Assembly: GCA_029975295.1 (NCBI GenBank)
Contig: JARKPK010000056.1
Location: 1-64,000, forward strand
DNA length: 64,000 bases
Source: Thermoguttaceae bacterium
Lineage (GTDB): Bacteria; Planctomycetota; Planctomycetia; Pirellulales; Thermoguttaceae
Direction: 5' to 3'
A program made the translations under genes and the position numbers. Numbering within the stretch: the first letter of the stretch is position 1; every line of letters starts with the position of its first letter. The notes beneath the pieces are model-generated. The model was not told the origin of the DNA, searched no databases, and saw only the letters and a program-made list of their open reading frames with translations. This document shows, piece after piece, positions 387 through 57,752 of this stretch.

Positions 387-3300
387 CTACGGTCCGTTCT
401 GCGCGGCGGGCGCGGCAGGCTCGGCCGGCGCTGCGCCGGGTTGGGCCGGCGCCGTGTTGGCCGGTGGATCGACCGCTGGCGGGTTGCCGGCCGGCGGTTC
501 TGCCGGCGCGCGGTTGGGCGGCGGTGCGCCGGGTGCGGCCGGCGGGGCAGGCTCGGGCTGCTTGATGCGGAAGTCGTTTTCGGCCGGTTTGTCCGTGGCG
601 GCGGGTTTCGGTCCGGCGTCGATCAGCAGGTAGGCCGCCCAAAAGAACGGGTGGTCGGCCTTGATCAACGGATCGTTGGCGGCTGCTTTGACGCGGGGCT
701 CGCCGGACGGATCGACTTGCGTTTGTTGTGCCAAAAGCACGGCGCGCTGCCAGGCCTCGGGGGCCGACGTATGCGGCAGCTCTTGAGCGAACTCGGCCAC
801 GAGCATTTCACTGGTGCGGCCGCCCGGTCGCCAGCGGCTGATGAGGATCGTCCGCGTGCCGGTGGCCATCAACGCGCAGCTTGTCAGGAACAGATCGTTG
901 CCGGGCCACGGCTTGGGCAGCGATTTGAGCGAGTCTTCGGCCGCCGTGTGGAACCCGGGAATGACCACCTCGGCCGGGCCGCCCCAGGGCAGCGAAAGCC
1001 AATCGATCAGCGCGCTGCCCGGCTTGCCGCGATCCAGCGAGATCGGGCCCCATTCCAGCGGGTTGGCTGAGGTCGGCGGCAAGTCGTCGAGCACGACGAG
1101 CCGATGCAAGATCGATCCGAACACCGACGACGGCGCCGGCAGCGGTCCGCGCAGCAGCACCGTGCCCGGCAAACCGGCGGCCAACCGCTCGGCGGCGCGA
1201 ACGGCCACTTCGGCGTCGTCGCGCGGGAAGAGCTTGCCGGGCGTCACCACCGAGTTGGCCGGCGCGGGCAGCCCGGGCAGGGTCGCCACGGCCAGCGATG
1301 CGGTCGGCGCATAGCGGATGCGCACCCGATTGATGAGCGGCTCGAAGCGGTTTTCGATCTTTACCGTCAGCGCTTCGAAGGGGAGATACCACAGCAGGCC
1401 GTCGGGCACGATGATCAATTCATCGAACGATTGCGTGAAGTCGGCCTTCGAGCCTTTCATCAGTCCTTCGAGCAACTGGTTGGCCGACGCTTGCCAGGCG
1501 GGATCGGCCAGTTCTTTTACGGGCACTTCGTTGTTGGCGGCGAACAGCCCCCATTGCCGCAGCAGTCCTTGCGTTTGCCGGGCCACCGTCGGCGGCGACG
1601 CCACGCTCCAATAGCTGTACCGCTCGTTGTTCAACAGAAATCCGTAGGTTTGCCGGCTCGTGGCGAAAAACACCAGCAGGGCGCGGCCCGGCGGCAATGC
1701 CTTCTGAATCGCCTGCGTTTCCATCAACGGCGGGAAAACCAGGCTGGCCGGTTCGCGCCGCACGGCGATTTCGCGCAGCGCGGCCTCTTGCTGCACGCTG
1801 ACGGCGACCAGACGTTGCCAAACGGCCGATTGCTCGCGGGCCACTTCGGCGTCGGCCGGCGCCAGCGGCTGCTGCGCCAGCGCCCGCCGCAGCTCGCTTG
1901 CCGTTTTCGAGAGCTGGGCGTAGGCCGGGTAGCGGGCCAGCAGGTCTTGACGGTGCAATCGCGAGGCGGCGTCGAGCTGTTCGATCGGCGCTTCGAGAAC
2001 CCAACGCAGCGACAAGAGCCGCCCGCCCATCGGCAACGTGGTGAAAAAGCGGTGCCGACGCGCGCGATCGGCAATTTGCAGGGCCGTTTCATACTCTTTG
2101 CGGTCGAGGGCGATTTCGAACCAGCGCTCGTACGGCCCGGGGTGCGGGGTGGTGAGCACGGCCAGGGCTTCCAGGGGATCCGACTGCCAGTCGCTCGGCT
2201 GCGGATCGCGGAGCACTTCGCCGTACATCTCCATCGCCACCCGCGGCGTTACATTGCGGCTGCCGCAGAGCACGTCGGCCAACTTGATGTGATACAGCCA
2301 GTAGCCGCCTTGCTGCATGAAGGCCAGCACGGTGCGCAATGCGGCGTCGCCCTCGGCGGCGCGCCCTTGCTGGTAGCTGATTAAGGCGCTGAGGTAGCCG
2401 GCGCGGGCGCCGATGCGGCCCTGGCCCATCAGCCGTCGGCCGACCACCACTTGCGCTTCGGCCAGCAGATCGCGGGCTTGGGCCGCTTGCCCCTGAAACG
2501 CGGCGATTTCGCACGCCGAAAGAAGCAACGACGCCCGAAGCTGCCGCAGGTTCTTCACCTTGGCCCATTGCGCCGCAGCCGCCAACGGCGCCACAACGCC
2601 CGGGCGATTGGCCAATTGATGCACTAAGGCCGTATAGCGAAAGGCTTCTTCCAGCGTGCCCAGGTCGTCGTAATGGAACGCCGAATAGGTCGATTCCTCG
2701 AAATACTTGGCTGCCGTCGGATAGTCGCCGTTGGCCAGAGCCAGGCGGCCCAACTCCAGCAACGCCACGCAGGTGAGCGGATGATCGTATTCGCCGCCGG
2801 CCACCAATGATTGCTTCAAAGCGTTGATCCCTTGAGCCTCCTTGCCCGCCGCCACCAGCGCCAGCCCCAGTTGAAGGTTGATCCACGCCTCGGACCAGTG
2901 GTTCGGCGGGCCCGGGCGGCGCATCAGGGCGTTGGCCACCTCTTGCGTCAGCGGATCGTAGGAGCACGTTGGGCCGAGAATCTTCGCCCGACGCCGCATG
3001 GCCAGGGCCGTGCAGCGGACAATCTCTTGAACGTTCACCGGATACAGGGTGGCCGGCTGCACCGGGCCGCCGCGCTTGATCTGCGCGTTGACGTCGATCT
3101 GCCCCTGGGCAATCAACGTCGTCGTCGGGTAGTGGCCCAGGCGGGCCGTGCGCGAGCTGGCGCCCCAGGGCACGGGCCGCACGGTGGTCATCGGGCGAAT
3201 CGTCGGGGCGAACTGCACACGGATCATCCAGTCGGAGTACGCCACATAAAGCCGCAGCGCTGCCGTGTAATGGCTCAGCGCTTCGTCCAACCGGCCCATT

Positions 3301-3713
3301 TCGTGGTAGCACTCGCCCACCATCGTCTCGTAGCAGATCGAGTCGATCCAACGGGCCTGCGAGGTTTTGATCGCACCGCGCACCTGATCTTCGAACAGCT
3401 TCAGCGCGTCACGATATTCGCCGTCGAAAAAGTTCGGAAAGATGCCGAAGTATTCCGGCGAAGGGGCTCCGCGGTTTCCCGTTTGAGCCGATGCCGGCGC
3501 CGAGCAACTCAGCAGGAACGCCGGTACAAGAACGGCCAAAGCAATCAATCGCAATACCGGTGCGGCGCACCGCCGGGCCTCGGCCCTTAGCGGCCCACAG
3601 ACGGCCGGCGGCCCGTGCTCCGCAGCGCCTTCGCTCGCGGTCGAAGACAATTGCGTTGCCCGAAGCGAGGGCCTTGGCGGAAAACGGCCGCAAGCGAGGG
3701 AATCGGAACGCAT
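387..3713 (-). CDS. Exported TPR-repeat protein with C-terminal CHAT (caspase-like) domain
   Basis: This is a 1108-residue protein. The N-terminus carries a basic stretch, then a hydrophobic segment ending near SAPASAQ, so it is probably exported or membrane-anchored. The middle is a long alpha-helical array of TPR-like repeats (for example EALSHYTAALRLY and DYPTAAKYFEEST). The last third is a CHAT domain, with the typical IIVPDGLLWYLPFEAL segment and the presumed dyad His922 (GFHTAAE) and Cys946 (LTSCALM). The protein ends in a tail of about 75 residues rich in Pro and Ala. The ATG at 3713 is preceded by GGAGGAGG nine bases upstream, which decides the start; the frame stays open to 3959. CHAT proteins are caspase-related peptidases or scaffolds. 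The His-to-Cys spacing of 24 residues is shorter than in most family members, so activity is uncertain. No partner gene is adjacent. Confidence 0.85.
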   Translation of the reverse strand: MRSDSLACGRFPPRPSLRATQLSSTASEGAAEHGPPAVCGPLRAEARRCAAPVLRLIALAVLVPAFLLSCSAPASAQTGNRGAPSPEYFGIFPNFFDGEYRDALKLFEDQVRGAIKTSQARWIDSICYETMVGECYHEMGRLDEALSHYTAALRLYVAYSDWMIRVQFAPTIRPMTTVRPVPWGASSRTARLGHYPTTTLIAQGQIDVNAQIKRGGPVQPATLYPVNVQEIVRCTALAMRRRAKILGPTCSYDPLTQEVANALMRRPGPPNHWSEAWINLQLGLALVAAGKEAQGINALKQSLVAGGEYDHPLTCVALLELGRLALANGDYPTAAKYFEESTYSAFHYDDLGTLEEAFRYTALVHQLANRPGVVAPLAAAAQWAKVKNLRQLRASLLLSACEIAAFQGQAAQARDLLAEAQVVVGRRLMGQGRIGARAGYLSALISYQQGRAAEGDAALRTVLAFMQQGGYWLYHIKLADVLCGSRNVTPRVAMEMYGEVLRDPQPSDWQSDPLEALAVLTTPHPGPYERWFEIALDRKEYETALQIADRARRHRFFTTLPMGGRLLSLRWVLEAPIEQLDAASRLHRQDLLARYPAYAQLSKTASELRRALAQQPLAPADAEVAREQSAVWQRLVAVSVQQEAALREIAVRREPASLVFPPLMETQAIQKALPPGRALLVFFATSRQTYGFLLNNERYSYWSVASPPTVARQTQGLLRQWGLFAANNEVPVKELADPAWQASANQLLEGLMKGSKADFTQSFDELIIVPDGLLWYLPFEALTVKIENRFEPLINRVRIRYAPTASLAVATLPGLPAPANSVVTPGKLFPRDDAEVAVRAAERLAAGLPGTVLLRGPLPAPSSVFGSILHRLVVLDDLPPTSANPLEWGPISLDRGKPGSALIDWLSLPWGGPAEVVIPGFHTAAEDSLKSLPKPWPGNDLFLTSCALMATGTRTILISRWRPGGRTSEMLVAEFAQELPHTSAPEAWQRAVLLAQQTQVDPSGEPRVKAAANDPLIKADHPFFWAAYLLIDAGPKPAATDKPAENDFRIKQPEPAPPAAPGAPPPNRAPAEPPAGNPPAVDPPANTAPAQPGAAPAEPAAPAAQNGP

Positions 3714-4349
3714 CGGCAGGGCCTCCTCCGGGCGCGGTGGGCGCACCCTTCTACCAGTTCCACGTGGGACGATCGCTCGAACTCCGGCCCATTCGTGCGG
3801 GAAAACACGTTGGCCTTGGCTATCGAACGCGCCCGATCCATAGGCGACCGCTTGACCCGAAACGCCGGCCAATCGGCCGCCACCCCCACGGATCCATTCT
3901 AAAGGAAACCGCGGCAAAGCGAAAACAGCGCGAGCCCCCAATGCCCCGGCGCCCGACATTCACCGCCCACCGGGCAGAAGCCAGTCGGTTGCCGCCGTTT
4001 GCGGCCGGTTGTTTTGGGGCGTCGGGCAGAGCCGTCGGTCCTCGGCCGTGGGATGCCCGGGGCCGCGCGGCCGGTTCTTCAAGAATAACGCACTGCCGGA
4101 AGCAAGGATTCGCATTGCCAGTAAAGTTTCGGCTCGGTGGCGGCCGATAACGATGCTGACGTTTGTAGCGATTGTAGCGGCTGTAGCGCCTTGGTGCGGT
4201 TGTACGGCCGAAGATGGTCTGCACGATAGCGAAAGCGACCGCGAACGAAGCGCCGAGCCGAGCACGCACGCTGGGGATTGGTTGTCGCTTTCGATATGGT
4301 GCGGCTCTGTTCAGATAATTTGGGTAAACCTGCGAAGACGAGGTTTGTG
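3714..4349. other. Intergenic region with a TGTAGCG triplet repeat
   Basis: This gap lies between two divergent genes and should hold both promoters. I see no convincing -35/-10 pair. It contains three head-to-tail copies of TGTAGCG in a 9-bp period at 4164-4188. No gene is supported. Confidence 0.4.
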
Positions 4350-4595
4350 ATGAAGATCACCTCGGGTCAGAAACTGTGGGGTTTGGTGCTCTCGGCTTCG
4401 GTGTGCCTGAGCAGCTTGGGCACGTTGGGTTGCCAAGTGGAAGTCGGCGGGCAGACGCTTCCCAGCCCCTATTACTTGACCGACGACGTGCAGTACTTCC
4501 CGCGCGGCCATGAGTTCAAGCTCTACAACGAGGCCGCCGCGATGAAGGCCTACAATGAACAGGTTGCGCGGCAGCAGCAACAGCAGGCAAGATAG
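4350..4595 (+). CDS. Small exported or lipoprotein-like protein, planctomycete type
   Basis: This is an 81-residue protein. Its N-terminus has a Lys-containing start, a hydrophobic stretch (LWGLVLSASVCLSSLG) and then TLGC, a weak lipobox, so it is probably exported and possibly lipidated. The mature part contains LPSPYYLTDDVQYFPRG and ends in a Gln-rich run (QQQQQ). I chose the ATG at 4350 because it begins directly before the signal-like segment; the frame stays open upstream to 4278. No family with a known function was recognised. It resembles short conserved hypotheticals of planctomycetes, which is recollection and not a search result. Confidence 0.7.
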   Translation: MKITSGQKLWGLVLSASVCLSSLGTLGCQVEVGGQTLPSPYYLTDDVQYFPRGHEFKLYNEAAAMKAYNEQVARQQQQQAR

Positions 4596-4809
4596 TCGCC
4601 GCTTCGGGGGGGACGGCGCCCGAAGTTGCTGACATCCGCTGCCGCAACGGCCTGACGAGGGCTGCGGGGCGGGCGTCGGCAATTTCGGTTTTCTTGAAGA
4701 GACTTCCATCCGGCCAAACGCAGCGGAGTGCAGCCGGCCGCAACGCGGACAGTTGCGGTTGGCGATGATGCCAAAACGGGTGTTCGCGGCGCCGAAGCGG
4801 TGTTCGACC

Positions 4810-5232
4810 ATGCTGATTGCACAAGTAGCGCCTGACGTGCAACATTGGATCCACTTGGGGCTGGTTTGGGTCGGCTTCGGCGCGGTGGTCGGCTGGATCG
4901 CCCGCGCCATCCTTCCGCTTCGGCATCCCATCGGTTCGGCCGGCACGATTGTCGTGGGCATGATCGGCAGCACCATGGGGTTGTTGTGCTATTCGCTGTT
5001 CTTTCCCGCAGGCCGCGACCATCCTCTGAGCATCAGCGGCTTCGCGGCCTCGGTGGTCGCCTGCTGGATCGTCCTTGTGCTTTACCAACCTTGGGTTGCC
5101 TGGCAAACGCGCAGGGCGGCCGCCGCGCAGCCATCTGCGGCAGCGGCCGATGCTCCGGCGACGCCGGCCGACGCCCCTTGGCCTCCGGTTGTGCGCTCAC
5201 CGATCGGCGCCGAGAAGGAACGCGCCGTCTGA
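4810..5232 (+). CDS. GlsB/YeaQ/YmgE-family membrane protein (transglycosylase-associated type)
   Basis: This is a 140-residue protein with three predicted membrane segments (about residues 12-32, 42-62 and 70-92), followed by an Ala/Pro-rich cytoplasmic tail. The first segment with GWIARAIL, followed by GTIVVGMIGSTMG, follows the glycine-rich pattern of the GlsB/YeaQ/YmgE family. These are small inner-membrane proteins often linked to stress, and their biochemical role is not settled. The ATG at 4810 starts directly before the hydrophobic part, and other in-frame starts lie upstream. The tail of about 40 residues is longer than in the typical family member of 80-90 residues. Confidence 0.75.
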   Translation: MLIAQVAPDVQHWIHLGLVWVGFGAVVGWIARAILPLRHPIGSAGTIVVGMIGSTMGLLCYSLFFPAGRDHPLSISGFAASVVACWIVLVLYQPWVAWQTRRAAAAQPSAAAADAPATPADAPWPPVVRSPIGAEKERAV

Positions 5233-5647
5233 CCGAATCGCTCTAGCGTCGGTTGGGTCCATGATTTTCTTTCCAGGCGGCAAGCCGATGGCGGCGGGCC
5301 CCATCGACGCGGAATTGGCACGATAGGGCCGTCCGGTTTTTCCGTTTCGGATTGCCGGTCTGGCAGACTCTGCGCAACTGTCTGCGCCGCCGACCCGCGG
5401 GGCGTTGTTCTCGGCACAGGCGCTTCTTTTTAGCCGGGCATTGCCGTGCAGTTGCGTTGTGCCGAGCAGGTTCCCGCTGTCTTCGGTAGCGGACGGAAGG
5501 TTTGCTCCCATCGTGTCGCGCGCGGCGAAATCCTTTGCGGCCGCGGTTTTCCGTGGCCGATAGCCCGAAGGGAGACACGATTGCAGCGTCGGTCGCCGAG
5601 GCGGGGGACTCGGCCGTCGGTTGACGGAACGCAGAAAGGATGGGCGA
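5233..5647. other. Intergenic gap, nothing recognised
   Basis: There is no supported gene, clear terminator or promoter in this 415-bp stretch between the GlsB-like gene and a small hypothetical gene. The frames that cross it are compositionally biased and have no start-site signals. Confidence 0.4.
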
Positions 5648-5962
5648 ATGAAAAAAGACACTTTTCGCGTGGTGACGCGCGGGGCGGATGGGCAAATCCG
5701 CATCCGCGACTACGACTCGGCCGAGGCATTGCTGAAACGCCACGTTCAAGTCGGGATCGACGATTGCAGCGCCGACTTGGACCTTCGCGGCCTGCCGGTC
5801 TTTCGCGGGCTGATCGGTCCGATTCCCGAAGGAAAAAACATCATTCGTTACGAGTCGCCGGAGGTGTTTGAAACGTTGACGAAGGATTGGAGCGCACCGA
5901 GAACCTCGCGCCGCGCACGGAACAAAGCTCGCCAAGCGGAGGAACATCCGCCTGGGGCCTGA
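5648..5962 (+). CDS. Hypothetical protein, 104 aa
   Basis: This soluble protein of 104 residues has no signal peptide or membrane segment. The ATG at 5648 follows a purine-rich GAAAGGA at a suitable distance, and the next in-frame start upstream lacks one. The N-terminal 75 residues look like a compact alpha/beta unit (TFRVVTRGADGQIRIRDY, then IIRYESPEVFETL). The C-terminus is strongly basic (RTSRRARNKARQ). I do not recognise the family. It is judged real because of the ribosome binding site and the non-repetitive composition. Confidence 0.6.
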   Translation: MKKDTFRVVTRGADGQIRIRDYDSAEALLKRHVQVGIDDCSADLDLRGLPVFRGLIGPIPEGKNIIRYESPEVFETLTKDWSAPRTSRRARNKARQAEEHPPGA

Positions 5963-6350
5963 GTTGGCGTCGCCAGATGAAGTGCGGCGGCGATAGCGGT
6001 TCCTGCCGCGCCCATCGTCGGCCGCTCGGAGCACCTTCGCAGGCGATGCTCCGAACCCCTTCGACGGCGACGCACTACCCGAACAGCCCGACGGCCCGAT
6101 GCTCGGAAGGGCATCGGCCCGACGCTCCGCCACCCTAGAGCCGGGGCGGGCAGTTCCGTCCGGTAACTACCGAAAACGGAACAGCCTTCGCCTCGGTCAA
6201 CGCGAACGGCCGGAACGCCGGGAACATGCCGACGGGCCGAGCGCACCGCAGAGGTTCGTTCAATGCAGTCTGGGCGATGCGAATCGTATCGGCCCCCAAC
6301 CTGTGCCCGCCTCGGCAAAGCACCGGCTGGTTCGGTCGATCGGTTCGCCT

Positions 6351-6540
6351 CGCCCGACCGCTTTTTCTTGTCCAATTCAGCCTGCATTCAAGAAGCAACC
6401 GCCCGTTGCTCTCTGGACCTCGCAACGTCGCCCGACCGCTTTTTCTTGTCCAACTCCATCATGACCTGCAAGCCTCAGTCGGATTGGGGCGCTGCGCAGC
6501 CGAGATATTTCAACCGCCTTGTCTTGTCCAATTCAGCCCG
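6351..6540. repeat. Three direct repeats spaced exactly 78 bp apart
   Basis: The core TCTTGTCCAA starts at 6366, 6444 and 6522, a period of 78 bp both times. Copies 1 and 2 are identical over 25 bases (6351-6375 and 6429-6453). Copies 1 and 3 share TCTTGTCCAATTCAGCC (6366-6382 and 6522-6538). The intervening sequences differ. There are only three copies, copy 3 diverges on its left side, and no cas genes lie nearby. Confidence 0.75.
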
Positions 6541-6666
6541 CGTTGCCGCGCACGCGTTCAGGAAACGGGCACAGGCCCGTGTTGCCGGGTGCGTACTCCG
6601 ACTGGCTGCGGCAAAGCCCAATGGGGACGGGATTCGTTAGGAAACAAACGCCCGACGGCAAAAGCG

Positions 6667-6700
6667 AACGCCCCGCAACGCAGTCGTACCGGGCGTTTTT
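6667..6700 (+). terminator. Possible rho-independent terminator
   Basis: AACGCCC (6667-6673) pairs with GGGCGTT (6691-6697), and the right arm runs into a T stretch ending at 6700. The loop of 17 bases is long, so the structure is weak. No + strand gene ends immediately before it, so it would terminate transcription coming from the repeat patch or from the small gene ending at 5962. Confidence 0.35.
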
Positions 6701-6778
6701 GATCAGAAGCCGCCGCCGACGAGACGAGTTCCCTCGATGGTGGGGATTGCCGGGGCGGGGCGCTTCAGAAATTGCGAG

Positions 6779-6862
6779 TGCCCGGGAGAGGATTTGAACC
6801 TCCAAGACCTTGCGGTCACATGGTCCTGAGCCATGCGCGTCTGCCAATTCCGCCACCCGGGC
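6779..6862 (-). tRNA. tRNA-Leu (anticodon CAG)
   Basis: The gene is 84 nt long and folds as a class II tRNA. The acceptor stem is GCCCGGG with CCCGGGC and discriminator A. The D-arm region contains TGGCGGAATTGGCAGACGC. The anticodon stem CATGG/CCATG carries the loop CTCAGGA, with the CAG anticodon at 6826-6828. A variable arm (TGACCGCAAGGTCTT) follows, then the T arm GAGGTTCAAATCCTC. The CCA end is not encoded. It decodes CUG, the preferred Leu codon in a GC-rich genome. Confidence 0.96.
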
Positions 6863-7106
6863 CGACTTTCCTTTTCTAACCACAATCGGGGTCGGTTGCA
6901 AGGGGGCGACCGCGAGTCCGTTCCCGTGCTCCGGTGCGTGCGCGTTCGATGGGCCTTCAGCGGTCGCGACATCCTCTAACCATGCGACATCTGCCGGCCA
7001 TGCGTCGGTTCCGCACGCGGTATGAGCGTAAGGAGCGTAAGGAAGGAACGAGAGCTTCGCGCTTAGCGCCGCTACCCACGGATCCGACCTGTCGATCGAT
7101 GTTCGG

Positions 7107-8855
7107 CTATCGGCTGCGGACGCGGTCGCGCAGGGCGATCAGCGACTTCATCACCGAATAGAGTGCGCCGCCCGAGCCGCCCGACGCCGGGCCGCTCGCA
7201 TCGCCGCCGGCGCCGGCCGCCCCTGCGCCCGGCAGGCCGAAGGCGTCGTGCAGCAGGCAGTAGAGCCGATAGAGTTCGGCATAGATTTGGGCGGCCGCCT
7301 TGTTGGGGCGATAGACCTCGGGCTTCACGCCGGTCATGCGGCGCTGGGCTTTGGCAACATCGGGATATGCCCCGCCGACGACCGCGCCGAACACGGCCGC
7401 CCCCAGCGCGCAGGTTTGCGGCGCTCGGCTGATTTTCATAGGGCGGTTGCACACATCCGCGTAGATTTGCATTACCAGCGGGTTCTTTTCGGCGATGCCA
7501 CCGCAGTTGACCACTTCGTCCACCTTCAGGCCGTATTCCTCGAAGCGGTTGATAATCCGCAGCGCGCCGAAGGCCGTGGCCTCGATCAGTGCCCGATAGA
7601 CCTCGGCGGCCGTGGTGTGCAGCGTTTGCCCCACCAACAGCCCGGTGAGCAGCGGATCGACAAGGATCGTGCGATTGCCGTTGTTCCAATCGAGAGCGAG
7701 CAGGCCGCTTTCGCCGGGGCGGAGCTTGGCGGCGTCGCGCGAAAGCCGTTCGTGCGGATCGCCGTTGCGGGTGTACTCGGCCGGCGCAAGGTAGCGGACG
7801 AACCAGTGAAAGATGTCGCCGACGGCCGACTGACCCGCCTCCAGCCCGTACATCCCCGGGATGATCGAGCCAGGCACGATGCCGCACAGGCCGGGCACGT
7901 CGGGCAGTTGGGCCTCGCCCGGGGCGACGAGCATGTCGCACGTGCTGGTGCCGATGATCTTCACCAGCCGTCCGGGTTTGATGCCCGCCCCCACCGCGCC
8001 CATGTGCGCGTCGAACGCACCAACGGCCACCGGCACGCCCTCGGGCAGGCCAACCCGGGCGGCCACCTCCGCAGCCAACCGACCGGCGGGCCGATCGGAG
8101 GTTTGCGCCGGCGTGGCGTAGTGCTCGCGAATGCGGGGCAGGTCGGGATCGAGTTGAGCCAGAAAGTCGGCACTGGGCAACCCGCCCCACGATTCGTGAT
8201 ACATCGCCTTGTGCCCGGCCGCACAGATGCCGCGCGGCAGGGTGTCGGGATCGGTTCGCCCGGTGACGAAGGCGGGCACGAAGTCGGCCAACTCCACCCA
8301 GCTATAGGCGGCCTCGAACACCCGCGGGGCGGTCCGCTTGCAGTGCAACAGCTTCGACCAGAACCACTCGCTGCTATACACCCCGCCGCACTTGGCCAGG
8401 TAGGGTTCGCCGCAGCGACGGGCCAGGTCGGAGATTTCCGCAGCCTCGGCATACGAGGTGTGGTCTTTCCACAGCCAGGCGTGGGCGGCCGGGTTGCGGC
8501 GGAACTCGGGCCGAAGCGCCAGCGGCCGGCCTTGGCGATCGACCGGCAGCGGGGTCGAGCCGGTCGTGTCGATGCCGATGCCCACCACGGCCTCGGGCGA
8601 AAAGCCTTTGCGTTTTCGGGCTGCGCGAACCGCTCCGCCGACAGATTGATAGAAGCCCTCGATGTAGTCGGCCGGGTTTTGCCGGGCCAGGTGCGGGTCT
8701 TTCGGATCGACGATCACGCCGGCTGTGCCGCTGGGGTAGTTGAACACGGACGAGCCGACCTCGCTGCCGTCAGCCGTATCGACCACCACCGCCCGAACGC
8801 TATTGGTGCCGTAGTCCACACCGATAGACAACCGCGATTTCTGTTGTTTGGTCAT
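7107..8855 (-). CDS. araB: Ribulokinase
   Basis: This is a 582-residue FGGY-family sugar kinase. It would phosphorylate L-ribulose (or a related ketose) to ribulose 5-phosphate with ATP in the cytoplasm. The N-terminal ATP-binding motif IGVDYGTNSVRAVVVD, the GIDTTGSTPLPVD segment, the substrate-side WKDHT motif, and the second ATPase lobe (GTSTCDML, then GGIAEKNPLVMQIYADV) match bacterial AraB in order and total length. No araA, araD or araC gene is nearby, so the sugar pathway genes must be elsewhere, or the enzyme uses another ketose. The last 25 residues before the end are Gly/Ala-rich. Confidence 0.92.
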   Translation of the reverse strand: MTKQQKSRLSIGVDYGTNSVRAVVVDTADGSEVGSSVFNYPSGTAGVIVDPKDPHLARQNPADYIEGFYQSVGGAVRAARKRKGFSPEAVVGIGIDTTGSTPLPVDRQGRPLALRPEFRRNPAAHAWLWKDHTSYAEAAEISDLARRCGEPYLAKCGGVYSSEWFWSKLLHCKRTAPRVFEAAYSWVELADFVPAFVTGRTDPDTLPRGICAAGHKAMYHESWGGLPSADFLAQLDPDLPRIREHYATPAQTSDRPAGRLAAEVAARVGLPEGVPVAVGAFDAHMGAVGAGIKPGRLVKIIGTSTCDMLVAPGEAQLPDVPGLCGIVPGSIIPGMYGLEAGQSAVGDIFHWFVRYLAPAEYTRNGDPHERLSRDAAKLRPGESGLLALDWNNGNRTILVDPLLTGLLVGQTLHTTAAEVYRALIEATAFGALRIINRFEEYGLKVDEVVNCGGIAEKNPLVMQIYADVCNRPMKISRAPQTCALGAAVFGAVVGGAYPDVAKAQRRMTGVKPEVYRPNKAAAQIYAELYRLYCLLHDAFGLPGAGAAGAGGDASGPASGGSGGALYSVMKSLIALRDRVRSR

Positions 8856-9503
8856 GGTTGAACATTCCGCAAGCGAGCTATTCCGCAGACAACTGTTTCA
8901 TCGAGGTTCGACCTGTCGGGCGACCGCGCCGCGACAGGCTGCGCGAAGCCGTTTTCACGCCTTGAAATAATCGAACACACCGGTACGAACGAAAGCAGCG
9001 CTGGCCGAGGCGTCGCTGCCTCCGCACGGCTGAGCCGCATCTGAGCACGACTGGCTGCGCCAACTAATGACTGGCAACGCGCCGGCCGACGGAGCCGCCG
9101 ACGCAGGCATTGTACCGCGGCATTGTGCGGGCGATCTACTCCGCCGGCAAACGCCCCGCGGCCGTTCTCTCGCCGGTTTGCCGCGACGGGCCGAACGCCG
9201 GCAGAGAATCTTGCTTTTCCAAGCCGTTGTGGGCCAAGATAATTCCTGTACGGGGCGTTTCCAATGCAAAAACGCGCAAACCATCGCGCGCCGGGCTTTT
9301 CAGCAAGCGTTGGTTGGCTTAGGCTATCTCGATCGTGCTTCAGCCGCCGATCGCCTATCGGATTGCGACGGCAAGGGGGCTCTCCTAAGCGCCGGAAATG
9401 CAATGCAACCGCAAGATCGCCTTCCATCCGCAGCCGCCGCCGGCCGACCGCGCGCCGGCCTCGTTGCATTGTTGTTTTGAGCATCCATAGGTTCGGTCCG
9501 CGT
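8856..9503. other. Intergenic region between divergent genes
   Basis: This 648-bp gap lies between ribulokinase (minus) and the CorA-like gene (plus). It should hold both promoters, but I see no convincing -35/-10 pair. The frames crossing it are GC-driven and have no supporting signals. Confidence 0.4.
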
Positions 9504-21304: not shown

Positions 21305-23095
21305 TCACGTCTCGGCGTCGCTGCGGACGCTGAATTCGAGCTTCCAGCGGCCCGAGCCCTGCGCGCCGACGCACCAAAGCTCCAGCACCCCCAGTTCCGT
21401 GATCCGCGCGTGGAAACGGACGGGCACGAACGATTCGTCGCGCGATTCGTCGGCCGGCAGCAGTGTTTCCAGCGAGTCGGTTTCCTGCAATTCGTCGGGC
21501 GACCATTGGGCGAGCACAACCCCGGGCCGATCTTCTTTGCGCATCGACGAGCTGAAGAAGCGAAACTGAGCCGGTTCGCCCACCACGAGTCCGATCTCCG
21601 CGCCGGGCACGTCGGTTTCGGTGCCTTCTTCCATGCCAATCGGCGCCACGCACAACGCCCGCAAGGGCCGCGGCGCGCCAGGGACGGCCGGTCCAGCCGT
21701 CTCGATTCCGACGTAGTAAGCCCGCGCCGTACCGCCGCGGATGCGCATTCCGCCGCGTTGCTTGGCGAATCCGTAATGCGCCGCTCCGCGGGCCACGGCA
21801 TGATCGAGGTCGTGCGGCCCTTCCAACGCGGCGGCGCCGCCGGCCTCGGCGAACCAGTCGCCGAGCACATCGAGCATTCGCCGACGGAAGGCCTCGGCCT
21901 TGAATACGCCGCCGTTGAACAAGACGTGCGACGGGCGGATCGGTTGGCCGTCGGCCCCGTGGGCTTGAAGGAAGGCGGCCACATGGCGCGTAACGGCCGT
22001 ATCGCTTTCGAAGGGGAGGCCCAATTCCTGAAAGCCCGAGGCGCGCCGCCGCGCCGGCTTGTCGCCCAGCGCGCAGCGGGGGAAGAACCCGTCGAGCAGC
22101 AACGACGCGGCCGCGGCGCGGTCCAATTCGATCGAAACGGCGCCGCCCACCACGCGCCGCCCGCGCCCCAGCACGGCCACCGGATGCTTTTCCGGTCCGT
22201 CGGCGGCCAGCAGCGATTCCTTGGCCGCACGGCAACTGTGCCAAAGGGCCACGGATTGCCAAGGGTCGAGCTGCACGTTCTTTTCGGCGAACCGTTCGGC
22301 CGCATAATGGGCGAGGGCCAAGTCCATGTTGTCGCCGCCGACGAGCAAATGGTTGCCCACGGCCAGCCGGCGGAGCACCAGTTCCCCGTTTTCTTCGGCC
22401 ACGGAAACCAGCGTCAGGTCGGTGGTGCCGCCGCCCACGTCGCACACCAGCAGCGTATCGCCCACCTTCAGCAGGCGGCGCCAACGGTCGCCCACCGCGT
22501 CGAGCCAGGCATAGACGGCCGCCTGCGGCTCTTCGAGCAGAACGAGGTTTTCGGGCAACCCAGCGGCCAGCGCGGCCTCGCGGGTGAGTTCCCGCGCGCC
22601 GGCGTCGAACGAGGCGGGCACGGTCAGCACCACGGCCTGTCGCTCGATCGGCGCTTCGGGAAAGGCACCGCTCCAGGCGGCGGCCACGTGTTCCAAGTAG
22701 CGCCGCGCGGCAGTGACGGGCGACACCTTCCGCACGTCGTCGCCGGCCCCCCAGGGCAAGATCGGCTGTCGGCGATCGACTCGGCTGTGCGCCAGCCAGC
22801 TCTTGGCTGCGCCCACGGTTCGTTCCGGCGATTCGGCCGCGCGGCGGCGGGCCCATTCGCCAACCACGTCAATCGAGCGGCCCCAGGGTAGATCGAGCGA
22901 GCCGCGCTCTGCCTCCGACTCGTCGGCTAAGTAGAGGAACGAAGGAAGCATCGTCCGCGACTCGACCGTGCCGGCGGCCACCAATTGCGGCACGGGCAAC
23001 AGTTGCACCTGCGCCCGCTCGGCACCCAGCGGCGCGTAAGCCAGCACGCTGTTCGTGGTGCCCAAGTCGATTCCAATCACGTATTCCGCGCTCAT
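21305..23095 (-). CDS. Hsp70-family chaperone-like ATPase, DUF2760-linked type
   Basis: This is a 596-residue protein. The Hsp70 nucleotide-binding domain begins VIGIDLGTTNSVLAYA, has the second phosphate loop LLVCDVGGGTTDLTLV, and the adenosine motif HVLFNGGVFKAEAFRRRM. The C-terminal 150 residues are beta-rich and do not resemble the DnaK substrate-binding and lid domains. It belongs to the Hsp70-like group found beside DUF2760, whose clients are unknown. The DUF2760 gene lies upstream on the same strand (235-bp gap). In the arrangement I know from other bacteria a second, larger Hsp70-like gene often follows; here the next gene is a convergent HPF-like gene, so that partner is absent. Confidence 0.85.
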   Translation of the reverse strand: MSAEYVIGIDLGTTNSVLAYAPLGAERAQVQLLPVPQLVAAGTVESRTMLPSFLYLADESEAERGSLDLPWGRSIDVVGEWARRRAAESPERTVGAAKSWLAHSRVDRRQPILPWGAGDDVRKVSPVTAARRYLEHVAAAWSGAFPEAPIERQAVVLTVPASFDAGARELTREAALAAGLPENLVLLEEPQAAVYAWLDAVGDRWRRLLKVGDTLLVCDVGGGTTDLTLVSVAEENGELVLRRLAVGNHLLVGGDNMDLALAHYAAERFAEKNVQLDPWQSVALWHSCRAAKESLLAADGPEKHPVAVLGRGRRVVGGAVSIELDRAAAASLLLDGFFPRCALGDKPARRRASGFQELGLPFESDTAVTRHVAAFLQAHGADGQPIRPSHVLFNGGVFKAEAFRRRMLDVLGDWFAEAGGAAALEGPHDLDHAVARGAAHYGFAKQRGGMRIRGGTARAYYVGIETAGPAVPGAPRPLRALCVAPIGMEEGTETDVPGAEIGLVVGEPAQFRFFSSSMRKEDRPGVVLAQWSPDELQETDSLETLLPADESRDESFVPVRFHARITELGVLELWCVGAQGSGRWKLEFSVRSDAET

Positions 23096-54026: not shown

Positions 54027-56117
54027 ATGGCTCGTTTGATACCGGTCGGAATCGACTTGGGCACAACGTTTTCGGCCGTGGCGACGCTCGACGCTGCCGG
54101 CCGCAGCGTGTTGCTTTCGAACGACGAAGGCGACCTGCTCACCCCCAGCGTGGTGCTTTTTGCTCAGTCGGAAGTGGTTGTCGGCAAAGATGCCCGCAAC
54201 GCCGCGCTGATTGATCCGGCCTTGGTGGCCGAGTGGGTCAAGCGCGATATGGGTTCGCCGTTCTACAGCCGCCCGATCCAGGGCCGCTATCTGCCGCCCG
54301 AGGTGATTCAGGCCTGCATCTTGCGCAAGCTTCGGGGCAAGATCGACGCGGAGTTGGGCCCCGACGCCCGCTGCGTGATCACCGTGCCCGCCTATTTCGA
54401 CGAAACGCGGCGGAAGGCGACGGCCGACGCGGGCGAGATGGCCGGCCTCCGCGTTCTCGACATCGTCAACGAACCGACGGCCGCGGCCTTGGCCTTTGGC
54501 GAAACAGCCGGGTATCTCGATGCCGAGCGGGCCCCGTCGGGCGCGACGACCGTGTTGGTTTACGACCTAGGCGGGGGAACCTTCGACTGCACCTTGCTGC
54601 AACTGTCGGCCGGAAAGGTCGTTACCTTGGCCACCGACGGCGACGTGCAACTGGGCGGCCACGACTGGGATCTCCGCCTGATGAACCACGCCGCCGCCGA
54701 GTTCCGCCGCCTGCACAACCTCGATCCGCTGACCGATCCGGCTGCGGGCAATCGGCTGCTGCAAGCCGCGATTGAAGCCAAACACTCGCTCAGCGCTCGG
54801 CCGCGCACCCACATGCGGATTGACTTCCAGGGCCGCAGCCTCGACTTGGTGATTACGCGCGAGCTGTTCGCGGAACTGACGGGCGACTTGCTGGAGCGGA
54901 CGGCCTACACCACCCGCCAACTGCTCAACGACGCTCGATGGAGCTGGGATCGGGTTGATCGGGTGTTGCTGGTCGGCGGGGCGACGCGGATGCCGATGGT
55001 GGCCCAGATGCTGCGGCAACTGAGCGGCCGCGAGCCCGATCGCTCGGTCAATCCCGACGAAGCCGTCGCCCGAGGCGCGGCGCTGTATGCCGGTTACCTG
55101 CTGGCCAAGGCCGAAGGCGGCGCGGCGGGGCGGTTCGAGGTGACCAACGTCAACTCACACAGTTTGGGAATCGAGGGCATCGAACCGAGTACGATGCGGA
55201 AGATCAATGTGGTGTTGATTCCGCGGAACACGCCGCTGCCGGCGGTGAAAGTCGAGCGATTCACCACCAAGTCGGACAATCAGCGATCGATCGTCGTCCA
55301 TGTGCTCGAAGGCGAGAGTCCTTCGCCGGGCGACTGTACGAGCATTGGGCGGACGGTGATCCGCGACCTGCCGCCGGGGCTGCCGCGTGGATGGCCGGTC
55401 GATGTCGTTTTCTCGTACGAGACCAATGGGCGATTGCGCGTCGAGGCCTCGGTGCCCGGCACCGGCCAGGCCGCGCAGCTCGACCTGGAGCGCGCCGGCG
55501 GATTGACCGGCGGCGGGATTGATCGGTGGAAACGGGTTCTTTCGGGCGAACCGGGCTTTGCCGAGTTCGATCGGACCGTGTGCGACCTGCTCAACGAGGC
55601 GGGCGGACTGATCGCACCGGCCGGAGCGACCAGCGCCGTGGCGGCGCTGCCGCTCGGCGCAGCGGCCCCTGGGAACGCACCACCCGTGGGTGCGGCGGGG
55701 CCGGCGGCAAACAACGGGGGCGGCGCGTATGCCCCCGGCGATTCGGCGGTTGCCGCCCACTGGGGCGGGGCGGCTTTGTCGGCGGCCGAGTTGCCCGAGC
55801 GTGCGGCATTGCGGTCGCCAACCGGCGCGCCGGCAAGTATGCTGGAGGGAACAACGCCTTCGGCCGGCCCAGGGGGCGCGCTTGCGACGGCTGGGCCCGC
55901 GCCCCCGCCGGTGCAGCCCGGCGCTGAGGGCGCGCCGGGCGCGGCGGCAGCGGGGAGCACGGCGGCCTCGGGTGCGCCGGAAGCTCCTTCGCGGGGCGGA
56001 ATTCCGCATTGGCTGGTGATCGTGATCGGTTACTTGCTTTCGGCCATCGTCGGGTTGTCGTTGGGCTATTTGGTGTTGATGTGGCTTCGGCCCGAGTCGT
56101 TTCCGCGGCCGTGGTAG
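54027..56117 (+). CDS. Tail-anchored, lid-less Hsp70-family protein
   Basis: This is a 696-residue protein. The Hsp70 nucleotide-binding domain (1 to about 375) has VGIDLGTTFSAVATLD, VITVPAYFDETRRKAT, VLVYDLGGGTFDCTLL and LLVGGATRMPMVAQML. A beta-type substrate-binding domain (about 385-520) follows, with NVNSHSLGIEGI and IPRNTPLPAVK. The helical lid is missing. A Gly/Ala/Pro linker of about 130 residues leads to a single C-terminal membrane helix (HWLVIVIGYLLSAIVGLSLGYLVLMWL), so the ATPase should be held at the cytoplasmic face of a membrane. It is first in an apparent operon with a second Hsp70 (88-bp gap) and holA. No J protein or GrpE is nearby. Confidence 0.9.
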   Translation: MARLIPVGIDLGTTFSAVATLDAAGRSVLLSNDEGDLLTPSVVLFAQSEVVVGKDARNAALIDPALVAEWVKRDMGSPFYSRPIQGRYLPPEVIQACILRKLRGKIDAELGPDARCVITVPAYFDETRRKATADAGEMAGLRVLDIVNEPTAAALAFGETAGYLDAERAPSGATTVLVYDLGGGTFDCTLLQLSAGKVVTLATDGDVQLGGHDWDLRLMNHAAAEFRRLHNLDPLTDPAAGNRLLQAAIEAKHSLSARPRTHMRIDFQGRSLDLVITRELFAELTGDLLERTAYTTRQLLNDARWSWDRVDRVLLVGGATRMPMVAQMLRQLSGREPDRSVNPDEAVARGAALYAGYLLAKAEGGAAGRFEVTNVNSHSLGIEGIEPSTMRKINVVLIPRNTPLPAVKVERFTTKSDNQRSIVVHVLEGESPSPGDCTSIGRTVIRDLPPGLPRGWPVDVVFSYETNGRLRVEASVPGTGQAAQLDLERAGGLTGGGIDRWKRVLSGEPGFAEFDRTVCDLLNEAGGLIAPAGATSAVAALPLGAAAPGNAPPVGAAGPAANNGGGAYAPGDSAVAAHWGGAALSAAELPERAALRSPTGAPASMLEGTTPSAGPGGALATAGPAPPPVQPGAEGAPGAAAAGSTAASGAPEAPSRGGIPHWLVIVIGYLLSAIVGLSLGYLVLMWLRPESFPRPW

Positions 56118-56204
56118 TTGCCGTCTGCGATGACCTCGGTGGGGTGCAGAGGTTCAGGTGTTGTTCGAGAGAAACCGGATCAAGCGATTGGCGCAGCGGG
56201 GTTT

Positions 56205-57752
56205 ATGAAAAAACTATCGGTACCAGCGGTGGGCATCGACCTGGGGACGACGTTCTCCGTGGTGGCCAAACTCGATGACGAGGGCCGCCCGCAAACGTTG
56301 ATCAACGCCGAAGGCGAACGGCTGACCCCCAGCGTGGTGCTTTTCGATCAAGACGCGGTGGTGGTCGGCCGCGAGGCGTTGAAAGCCTTGGCGATCGAGG
56401 CCGAGAATTGCGCCGAGTGCTCGAAGCGCGATGTGGGACACCGTGTTTTCCATAAGGTGCTCGAAGGCAAACAGTATCCTCCCGAGGTGATCGAGGCGTT
56501 GATCCTCAACAAGCTTCGGATCGACGCGGCCACGCAGGTCGGCCCGTTCAGCAAAGCCGTGGTGACCGTGCCGGCGTATTTCGATGAAGTTCGCCGCAAG
56601 GCCACGCAAGACGCCGGCTACATGGCCGGGCTGGAGGTGATGGACATCATCAACGAGCCGACGGCCGCGGCCGTGGCCTTCGGCTTCCAGCAGGGCTATC
56701 TCAACCGCGAGGGCAGCTCGATCGAGCCGCAGCATGTTTTGGTGTACGATTTGGGCGGCGGCACATTCGATCTGACGTGCATGGAGATTCGCGGCACGGA
56801 GTTCATCGCCTTGGCCACCGACGGCGACGTCCGCCTGGGCGGCTACGATTGGGACCAGCGATTGGTCGATTTGGTGGCCGAGCAGTTCATCCGCAAACAC
56901 GGCGCTGACCCGCGCGAAGATCCCCGGTCGTCGGGTAAGCTGTGGCGCGAGTGCGAAGACGCCAAGCGCACGCTCTCGACGCGTCCGAAAGCTACGGTCA
57001 TTTGCGAGCATCGCGGATTGATCGCGCATGTGGAAGTGACGCGCGAACAATTCGAGGAATCGACGCAAGACCTGCTCGATCGCACCCGCTTCACCACGGT
57101 GCAAACGCTCAAGGCGGCCGGGCTCCAGTGGAGCGAAATCGACCGCGTGCTGCTGGTCGGCGGTTCGACGCGGATGCCGATGGTCCGCAAAATGCTCGAA
57201 GAACTGACCGGCAAACCGCCCGACGCCTCGGTGGCCGCCGACGAGGCTGTGGCCCACGGCGCGGCCCTGCACGCCGGGTTGCTGCTGGCCAAAGAGCAGG
57301 GCCTGCCGCGGCTGTTCCGCATTCGCAACGTCAACTCGCACAGCCTGGGCGTGGTGGGCATCGACCCGCTCACCAAACGCCGCCGCAACGGGATCCTCAT
57401 TCCCCGCAACACGCGGCTGCCGGTGACGGCCAAGCGGACGTTCAAAACGTCGAAGGCCAATCAACGATCGGTGCTCGTGCAAATCGTCGAGGGCGAAAGC
57501 CCCTCGGCCGACGAATGCACCCCGATCGGCCGCTGCTCGCTGCCGAAACTGCCCTCGGGCCTCTCGGCGCAAACACCGGTGGATGTGTGGTTCCACTACA
57601 AGCCCAACGGGCGATTGAAGGTCCGCGTGCTCGTGCCCGGCACCGACCGCAAAGTGGAAACCGAGATCGTTCGCGAAAACAGCCTGCCCAAGGAACACCT
57701 CGACGGCTGGCGACAGTATATTTCGGGCGTGCCGCCGACGGAGTATCGGTAG
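56205..57752 (+). CDS. Short lid-less Hsp70-family protein
   Basis: This 515-residue protein is paralogous to the gene before it. Both begin VGIDLGTTFS-VA-LD--GR and share LTPSVVLF. The nucleotide-binding domain covers residues 1 to about 370 (VVTVPAYFDEVRRKATQDAGYM, VYDLGGGTFDLTC, LLVGGSTRMPMVRKML). A beta substrate-binding domain ends near residue 500 (VDVWFHYKPNGRLKVRVLVPG). There is no lid, linker or membrane helix, so it is soluble. The ATG at 56205 begins MKKLSVPAVGIDLGTT; the frame stays open upstream to 56118. The two genes probably arose by tandem duplication. Confidence 0.9.
   Translation: MKKLSVPAVGIDLGTTFSVVAKLDDEGRPQTLINAEGERLTPSVVLFDQDAVVVGREALKALAIEAENCAECSKRDVGHRVFHKVLEGKQYPPEVIEALILNKLRIDAATQVGPFSKAVVTVPAYFDEVRRKATQDAGYMAGLEVMDIINEPTAAAVAFGFQQGYLNREGSSIEPQHVLVYDLGGGTFDLTCMEIRGTEFIALATDGDVRLGGYDWDQRLVDLVAEQFIRKHGADPREDPRSSGKLWRECEDAKRTLSTRPKATVICEHRGLIAHVEVTREQFEESTQDLLDRTRFTTVQTLKAAGLQWSEIDRVLLVGGSTRMPMVRKMLEELTGKPPDASVAADEAVAHGAALHAGLLLAKEQGLPRLFRIRNVNSHSLGVVGIDPLTKRRRNGILIPRNTRLPVTAKRTFKTSKANQRSVLVQIVEGESPSADECTPIGRCSLPKLPSGLSAQTPVDVWFHYKPNGRLKVRVLVPGTDRKVETEIVRENSLPKEHLDGWRQYISGVPPTEYR

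Follow-up and report, generated by a model that had tools for sequence, protein, structure and literature searches.

Tandem lidless Hsp70s of a planctomycete and a J-like domain as their candidate co-chaperone

Introduction

How could an Hsp70 be operated when it lacks both the lid and, in its gene neighborhood, the co-chaperones that normally control substrate release? This question is raised by two adjacent Hsp70 genes, here called A and B, found in a 64,000-nucleotide stretch of DNA from a Thermoguttaceae bacterium of the phylum Planctomycetota (GenBank assembly GCA_029975295.1, contig JARKPK010000056.1, positions 1 to 64,000 of the forward strand), which we refer to as the window. An initial annotation of this DNA had proposed that a membrane-bound and a soluble Hsp70, without J-domain or GrpE partners, may act as a chaperone hetero-complex or as an ATP-dependent scaffold at the membrane. 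In DnaK, Arg167 and Gln378 contact the Asp of the histidine-proline-aspartate (HPD) motif of the J-domain, as described in PMC8215388, and this contact site is changed in A and B. The comparisons reported here suggest that the paired Hsp70s and an altered helper domain form a second chaperone system, parallel to the usual one and located at the cell membrane. The best explanation, to which we give a little better than even odds (about 0.55), is that of a membrane-facing Hsp70 system in which the J-domain trigger has been rebuilt on both sides, A and B being ATPases from a clan of planctomycete Hsp70s that no longer belongs to the DnaK/DnaJ/GrpE system.

Results

Gene A (54,027 to 56,117) encodes a protein of 696 residues and gene B (56,205 to 57,752) one of 515 residues, both on the plus strand, as are all their features given below, and the two proteins are 52% identical across 503 residues. 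Both are matched by the Hsp70 profile PF00012 well above its cut-off of 20.6 bits, A with 390 bits (E 1.5e-116, residues 7-500, profile positions 2-509 of 599) and B with 383 bits (E 2.1e-114, reaching profile position 507), and in both the match stops at the beta part of the substrate-binding domain (SBD-beta), so that the alpha-helical lid of DnaK is missing. The AlphaFold2 models (mean predicted local distance difference test, pLDDT, of 76.1 for A and 76.7 for B) present a nucleotide-binding domain (NBD) and an SBD-beta, with two short helices in A (495-506 and 511-524) and a single one in B (496-506; 57,690 to 57,722) in the place of the lid, this last helix being the sole element of B beyond SBD-beta. 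The solved structure closest to the A model is ATP-bound DnaK (4b9q), a match in which the identity to DnaK is 34%. In the case of A, the chain continues in a Pro/Ala-rich linker that is probably disordered (residues 530-656; 55,614 to 55,994; pLDDT below 50 over most of it) and ends with one strongly hydrophobic helix (661-687; 56,007 to 56,087), nine residues from the C-terminus, which hydropathy predicts to be a membrane helix, which AlphaFold2 also models as helical, and which has the position expected of a tail anchor. The initial annotation had described precisely this, two neighboring paralogues ending after SBD-beta, the first with a long linker and a C-terminal membrane helix, and the profile matches and models agree with it. 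The start of B had to be moved from the TTG at 56,118, the far end of the open frame, to a conserved ATG at 56,205, which lies 87 nucleotides past the stop codon of A; this start and the end of B are kept in 18 aligned relatives. In L055, L058 and L172, basic residues are more prominent on the N-terminal than on the C-terminal flank of the membrane helix, which fits a cytosolic Hsp70 part, the flanks of the window's own A being indecisive. A further frame of 596 residues in the window (21,308 to 23,095, minus strand) is matched by PF00012 in part, over an Hsp70-type ATPase region at residues 153-295 (54 bits), and looks like another Hsp70-like family.

A and B belong to a clan of 76 lidless Hsp70s, made up of 18 A-type proteins, 26 of the B type and two more groups without a lid, C with 19 members and D with 13, which we aligned in E. 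coli DnaK numbering. In a tree of 92 Hsp70s, the 18 A-type rows formed one clade and the 26 B-type rows another, with Shimodaira-Hasegawa-like approximate likelihood ratio test (SH-aLRT) supports of 100 and 99, and in a more careful tree of 40 rows the five A and the five B sequences were grouped with supports of 100/100 and 100/99, respectively. The catalytic residues (DnaK Asp8, Lys70, Glu171, Asp194, Thr199 and Asp201) are kept in A, in B and across the 76 members, with rare exceptions in the A clade. The position of DnaK Arg167 is occupied by Asp in 73 of the 76 (Gly, Asn and Ala being the exceptions), that of Asp393 by Asn in 58, with Asp retained in 10 of the 19 C-group proteins, and the Gln378 position is replaced as well. 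Asp145 of A (codon 54,459 to 54,461, within a pattern match at 54,459-54,484) and Asp147 of B (codon 56,643 to 56,645, within a pattern match at 56,643-56,668) are the equivalents of Arg167, and Asn374 of A and Asn375 of B stand at the Asp393 position, so both proteins are without the residues by which DnaK is coupled to J-domains. The same Asn opens the interdomain linker motif NVNSHSLG (A 374-381, 55,146 to 55,169; B 375-382, 57,327 to 57,350): in A and B, approximately [F/L]x[V/I]xNVNSHSLG stands where the linker VLLLDVTPLSLG would be, and its hydrophobic residues are altered.

Other features of the clan are shared with known specialized Hsp70s. The GrpE signature positions (DnaK 290-291) are missing in all 76 members and likewise in HscA and HscC, and a deletion at DnaK 84-106 is not distinctive, because HscC and Bacillus DnaK have it too. 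The salt bridges of the nucleotide cleft are lost in B and mixed in A, and in HscA the missing bridges accompany fast ADP release, according to PMC8215388. Neither protein reaches the NCBIfam equivalogs for DnaK (379-383 bits for A and 350-367 bits for B, against cut-offs of 822.55 and 648) or HscA (337 and 310 bits, against 708.55). E. coli HscC has Arg and Asp at the 167 and 393 sites where A and B have Asp and Asn, and in the tree it is placed with the canonical group (100/99), although its branch is very long (2.65).

The genome that contains A and B also encodes a full-length DnaK with Arg and Asp at these two sites, three J-domain proteins that carry HPD (two above the Pfam cut-off and one below), and one GrpE. 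The lack of J-domain and GrpE partners stated in the initial annotation is thus true of the neighborhood of the pair and not of the genome. Furthermore, there are seven J-like proteins devoid of HPD, and in six of them a membrane helix is predicted C-terminal to the J-like domain. One protein of this genome (L226, 2,516 to 5,056, minus strand) combines a J-like domain with a double zinc ribbon and a PilM-type ATPase.

This J-like domain is often encoded near genes of the clan. The gene next to C-type Hsp70s encodes a membrane protein with an MshEN domain in 9 of the 21 loci fetched, and the protein immediately 3' of the C-type Hsp70 in L156 (10,008 to 11,033) consists of a J-like domain, an MshEN domain, which may bring a nucleotide second-messenger input, and a membrane helix. 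Residues 22-86 of the L156 protein gave only 18.2 bits with the Pfam DnaJ profile (cut-off 27.8), and a Pfam scan of the seven J-like proteins of the window's genome gave no DnaJ match at E<=0.05. When 51 J-like sequences were compared with 69 J-domain sequences by hhalign, all 63 J-domain columns were aligned with a probability of 96.6% and an E of 6.4e-10, and smaller sets of ten J-like and three J-domain sequences still gave 81% and 1.2e-5. A profile search of the PDB also placed J-domains on top (best E 7.2e-5), with one WD-40 protein in third place. Taken on profile comparison, the J-like domain is probably homologous to the J-domain over its length. The HPD motif is found in 65 of the 69 J-domains and in none of the 51 J-like domains, which typically present R-[K/T]-[Y/F] at this place. 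Among the 41 J-like domains from genomes with Asp-type Hsp70s, the His33 column of the hhalign alignment holds Arg or Lys in 37 and the Asp35 column Tyr or Phe in 33, and both columns are mixed in the ten whose genomes lack the Asp pattern.

The genes of the clan and those of the J-like domain tend to lie together. We analyzed a class sample of 148 genomes with 99 clan matches, scoring at most ten candidates per genome and using the 150 J-like matches listed. At least 47 of the 99 clan matches are within 7 kb of a J-like match, when about 0.45 would be expected with J-like genes scattered over 6.5-Mb genomes, and at least 39 are within 600 bp, at least 35 of these with the J-like gene downstream on the same strand and at least 4 in divergent orientation. 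Where an A-type gene stands alone, in five loci, a J-like gene lies head-to-head with it in three (L166, L176 and L177), and this J-like gene in L176 is an open frame of 199 residues with its own C-terminal membrane helix. In another class of the phylum (genome G204, locus L257), a gene for a Ser/Thr kinase fused to a clan-like Hsp70 (3,387 to 5,906) has right behind it a J-like gene (5,910 to 9,155) whose product appears by eye to carry a zinc ribbon, a membrane helix and repeats.

Both families also occur in the same genomes. At a J-like threshold of E<=1e-6, the class sample comprised 73 genomes with both, 6 with the clan only, 19 with the J-like domain only and 50 with neither, and at E<=1e-21 these numbers were 59, 20, 1 and 68; Fisher p values for this association ignore kinship. 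In a phylum sample, also of 148 genomes, the Asp pattern was found in 16, the J-like domain in 25 and both in 15, but 14 of these 15 are also in the class sample, which leaves G204 as the one case from outside the class. Of the 16 genomes with the Asp pattern, the one that lacked a J-like match (G185) was discarded, as its protein is by sequence a different Hsp70-like ATPase. Finally, in a sample of 25 relatives, J-like matches were present in 18 of the 19 genomes with a clan match at E<=1e-90, the remaining one (G011) being 68% complete, and in three of the six without a clan match.

Regarding the pair itself, 24 of the 26 B loci have enough context, L046 and L052 ending at a contig edge. A is immediately 5' of B in 13 of the 24, including the window and L047, where only the tail of A is seen, and about 2.9 kb upstream in one (L175); the other ten have B with no A nearby, and five loci have an A-type gene alone. 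The A-B pairing is therefore more frequent than chance and is not obligatory. A C-terminal membrane helix was predicted in all 18 proteins of the A clade and in none of the 26 of the B clade (19-residue hydropathy). We considered that the tail could be a module shared with other proteins and searched the last 48 residues of A against 30 genomes; the ten matches at E<=5.1e-4 were all A-type tails or a contig-edge A tail, those remaining (E>=0.01) resembled chance hydrophobic stretches, and the idea was rejected. Besides Hsp70, no family reached three occurrences among 21 B loci or among a set of 12 loci that mostly have B alone, and holA, which adjoins B in the window, did not recur as a neighbor in the other loci compared.

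A pattern scan of named genomes was too general, returning 80 loci of which most were canonical DnaK, and 13 of them were used in the tree. Tandem Hsp70s are seen outside the planctomycetes in Metabacillus litoralis (L067, 6,306 to 7,967 and 7,974 to 10,079), the first with Asp at the J-site and the second fused to a VWA domain and keeping the Arg. In L171 (genome G148; 2,737 to 6,663, minus strand) a clan Hsp70 is part of a frame of 1308 residues, for which a membrane helix is predicted at 827-845 and whose long C-terminal part looks, by eye, like a cyclase-type repeat protein.

Discussion

In the mechanism that we favor, the J-like domain would dock at the J-domain site of the Hsp70 through a charge contact that has been inverted on both sides, the Hsp70 Arg having become Asp and the J-domain Asp having been lost with the gain of a basic residue, and the docked domain would trigger ATP hydrolysis by A and B. 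The J-like domain is N-terminal in six membrane-helix proteins of this genome, and such J-like receptors would therefore act at the inner face of the membrane, where they could recruit and fire both the tethered A and the soluble B, which may cooperate. Without a lid and GrpE, the ATP-driven binding would be short-lived and local, and the likely task would be to hold or remodel the cytosolic parts of membrane complexes as clients rather than general refolding. The lidless pair of the initial annotation, one member with a predicted anchor and both with intact ATPase residues, is retained in this proposal, and what changes is the supposed lack of a J-type co-chaperone: a dedicated, rewired one is likelier than none, because the J-docking Arg is Asp and because both gene order and co-occurrence tie the clan to a J-like domain without HPD. 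A wider claim, that this is a natural orthogonal Hsp70-J system, in which a whole bacterial clade has inverted the charge of the contact in both partners and turned it into a network of membrane receptors, many J-like receptors addressing a tethered and a soluble Hsp70, is more tentative, and we would put it somewhat short of an even chance.

Several observations weigh against a rebuilt trigger. The stretches fetched around A-B pairs contained no J-like gene, and in genome G028 it is an HPD-bearing DnaJ gene that follows the pair. Among the J-like matches listed, 52 clan matches are unlinked; the window's A and B are among these, as are 21 of the 22 genes of family f21 (a single one is linked), and the linkage counts are dominated by family f20, mostly as the C-type operon, so the cases are not independent. 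The genomes with the clan only (six at E<=1e-6 and 20 at E<=1e-21) all belong to f21. The clearest and single strong exception to co-occurrence is G090, a 98% complete genome of the window's family in which six J-like domains were found, the best at E 9.7e-36, but nothing from the clan at E<=1e-105, and G033 has three J-like domains and no clan match at E<=1e-90. When three J-like sequences were used alone, their homology to J-domains was not significant (hhalign probability 3.8%; best PDB E 0.053). Furthermore, the HPD loop can be aligned in more than one way and was aligned differently between comparisons, so that which residue faces Asp145 or Asp147 is not fixed, and the basic partner proposed above is an inference.

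Some of these observations would be expected if no J-type partner were needed. In this case, the Arg-to-Asp and linker changes would uncouple the domains and make A and B constitutively cycling ATPases, an ATP-gated membrane scaffold, with the J-like domain serving something else. The altered linker hydrophobics, the A-B pairs without an adjoining J-like gene, and the f21 genes, largely unlinked and in six genomes without a J-like match, are consistent with it, and so are the laboratory mutants DnaK R167D and Ssq1 R207D, in which, according to PMC7289447, the engineered Arg-to-Asp change raised basal ATPase and prevented effective J stimulation (30% of wild type for Ssq1). These mutants carry the same replacement at the J-domain site, but here it is natural, fixed across the clan and found alongside a changed J-like domain. 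The linkage of at least 47 of the 99 clan matches to a J-like gene, with three of the five lone A-type loci among them, and the co-occurrence of the two families argue against a scaffold without partner, and we regard it as unlikely, although it is the strongest of the alternatives.

It could also be that the J-like domain binds the clan without triggering it, recruiting, holding or blocking the Hsp70 at membrane proteins. There is precedent in Pam16 (Tim16), an HPD-less J-like subunit that is a regulatory partner of an ordinary Hsp70, and the absence of HPD from all 51 J-like domains would agree with an adaptor of this kind. However, the resemblance ends at the J-domain derivative, since the Hsp70 of Pam16 is ordinary and that of the clan is changed at the matching residue too, which points to a contact that was rebuilt rather than lost, and we consider an adaptor slightly less probable than the scaffold. 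That A and B are accessory Hsp70s using the ordinary DnaJ and GrpE of the cell is improbable: canonical DnaJs and GrpE are present in the genome and the DnaJ gene of G028 would suit it, but the J contact and linker sites (Arg167, Gln378 and Asp393) are replaced and the GrpE signature is absent throughout the clan.

If the trigger has indeed been rebuilt, the working mode of A and B would be closest to that of HscC with its tail-anchored J-proteins, DjlB and DjlC, in E. coli, yet the features of HscC, HscA and DnaK that we tested do not apply to them. According to PMC8215388, HscC is a specialized Hsp70 shorter than DnaK, without the GrpE signature, with deletions near DnaK 84-106 and Asp211 and acting at the plasma membrane, all of which resembles the present system, but it keeps Arg167 and Asp393 and uses J-proteins, whereas here the Hsp70 A itself is predicted to be anchored, Arg167 is Asp and the candidate co-chaperone has no HPD. 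With the DnaK of E. coli and of this genome, A and B share an NBD with intact catalytic residues and an SBD-beta, and they differ in the missing lid and GrpE signature, the altered linker and the Arg167 replacement. Conflict systems with two bacterial Hsp70 genes together were considered and set aside; those outlined in PMC7159879 have GrpE and J domains nearby and a second Hsp70 without the peptide-binding domain, whereas A and B both have SBD-beta and no such neighbors. Among titles and abstract openings, with subscription papers only partly covered, we found none on lidless or J-site-altered planctomycete Hsp70s, nor on the J-like domain.

Hsp70 machines are taken to share, almost universally, the contact between HPD and an arginine of the NBD. 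If both of its sides have changed together in one clade, this clade would be nature's own experiment on the triggering of Hsp70 by J-domains, and it could provide an orthogonal chaperone pair. It would also give a function to a domain of many planctomycete membrane proteins that falls below all Pfam cut-offs in the eight proteins scanned, and the purpose of a lidless, membrane-tethered Hsp70 would become testable.

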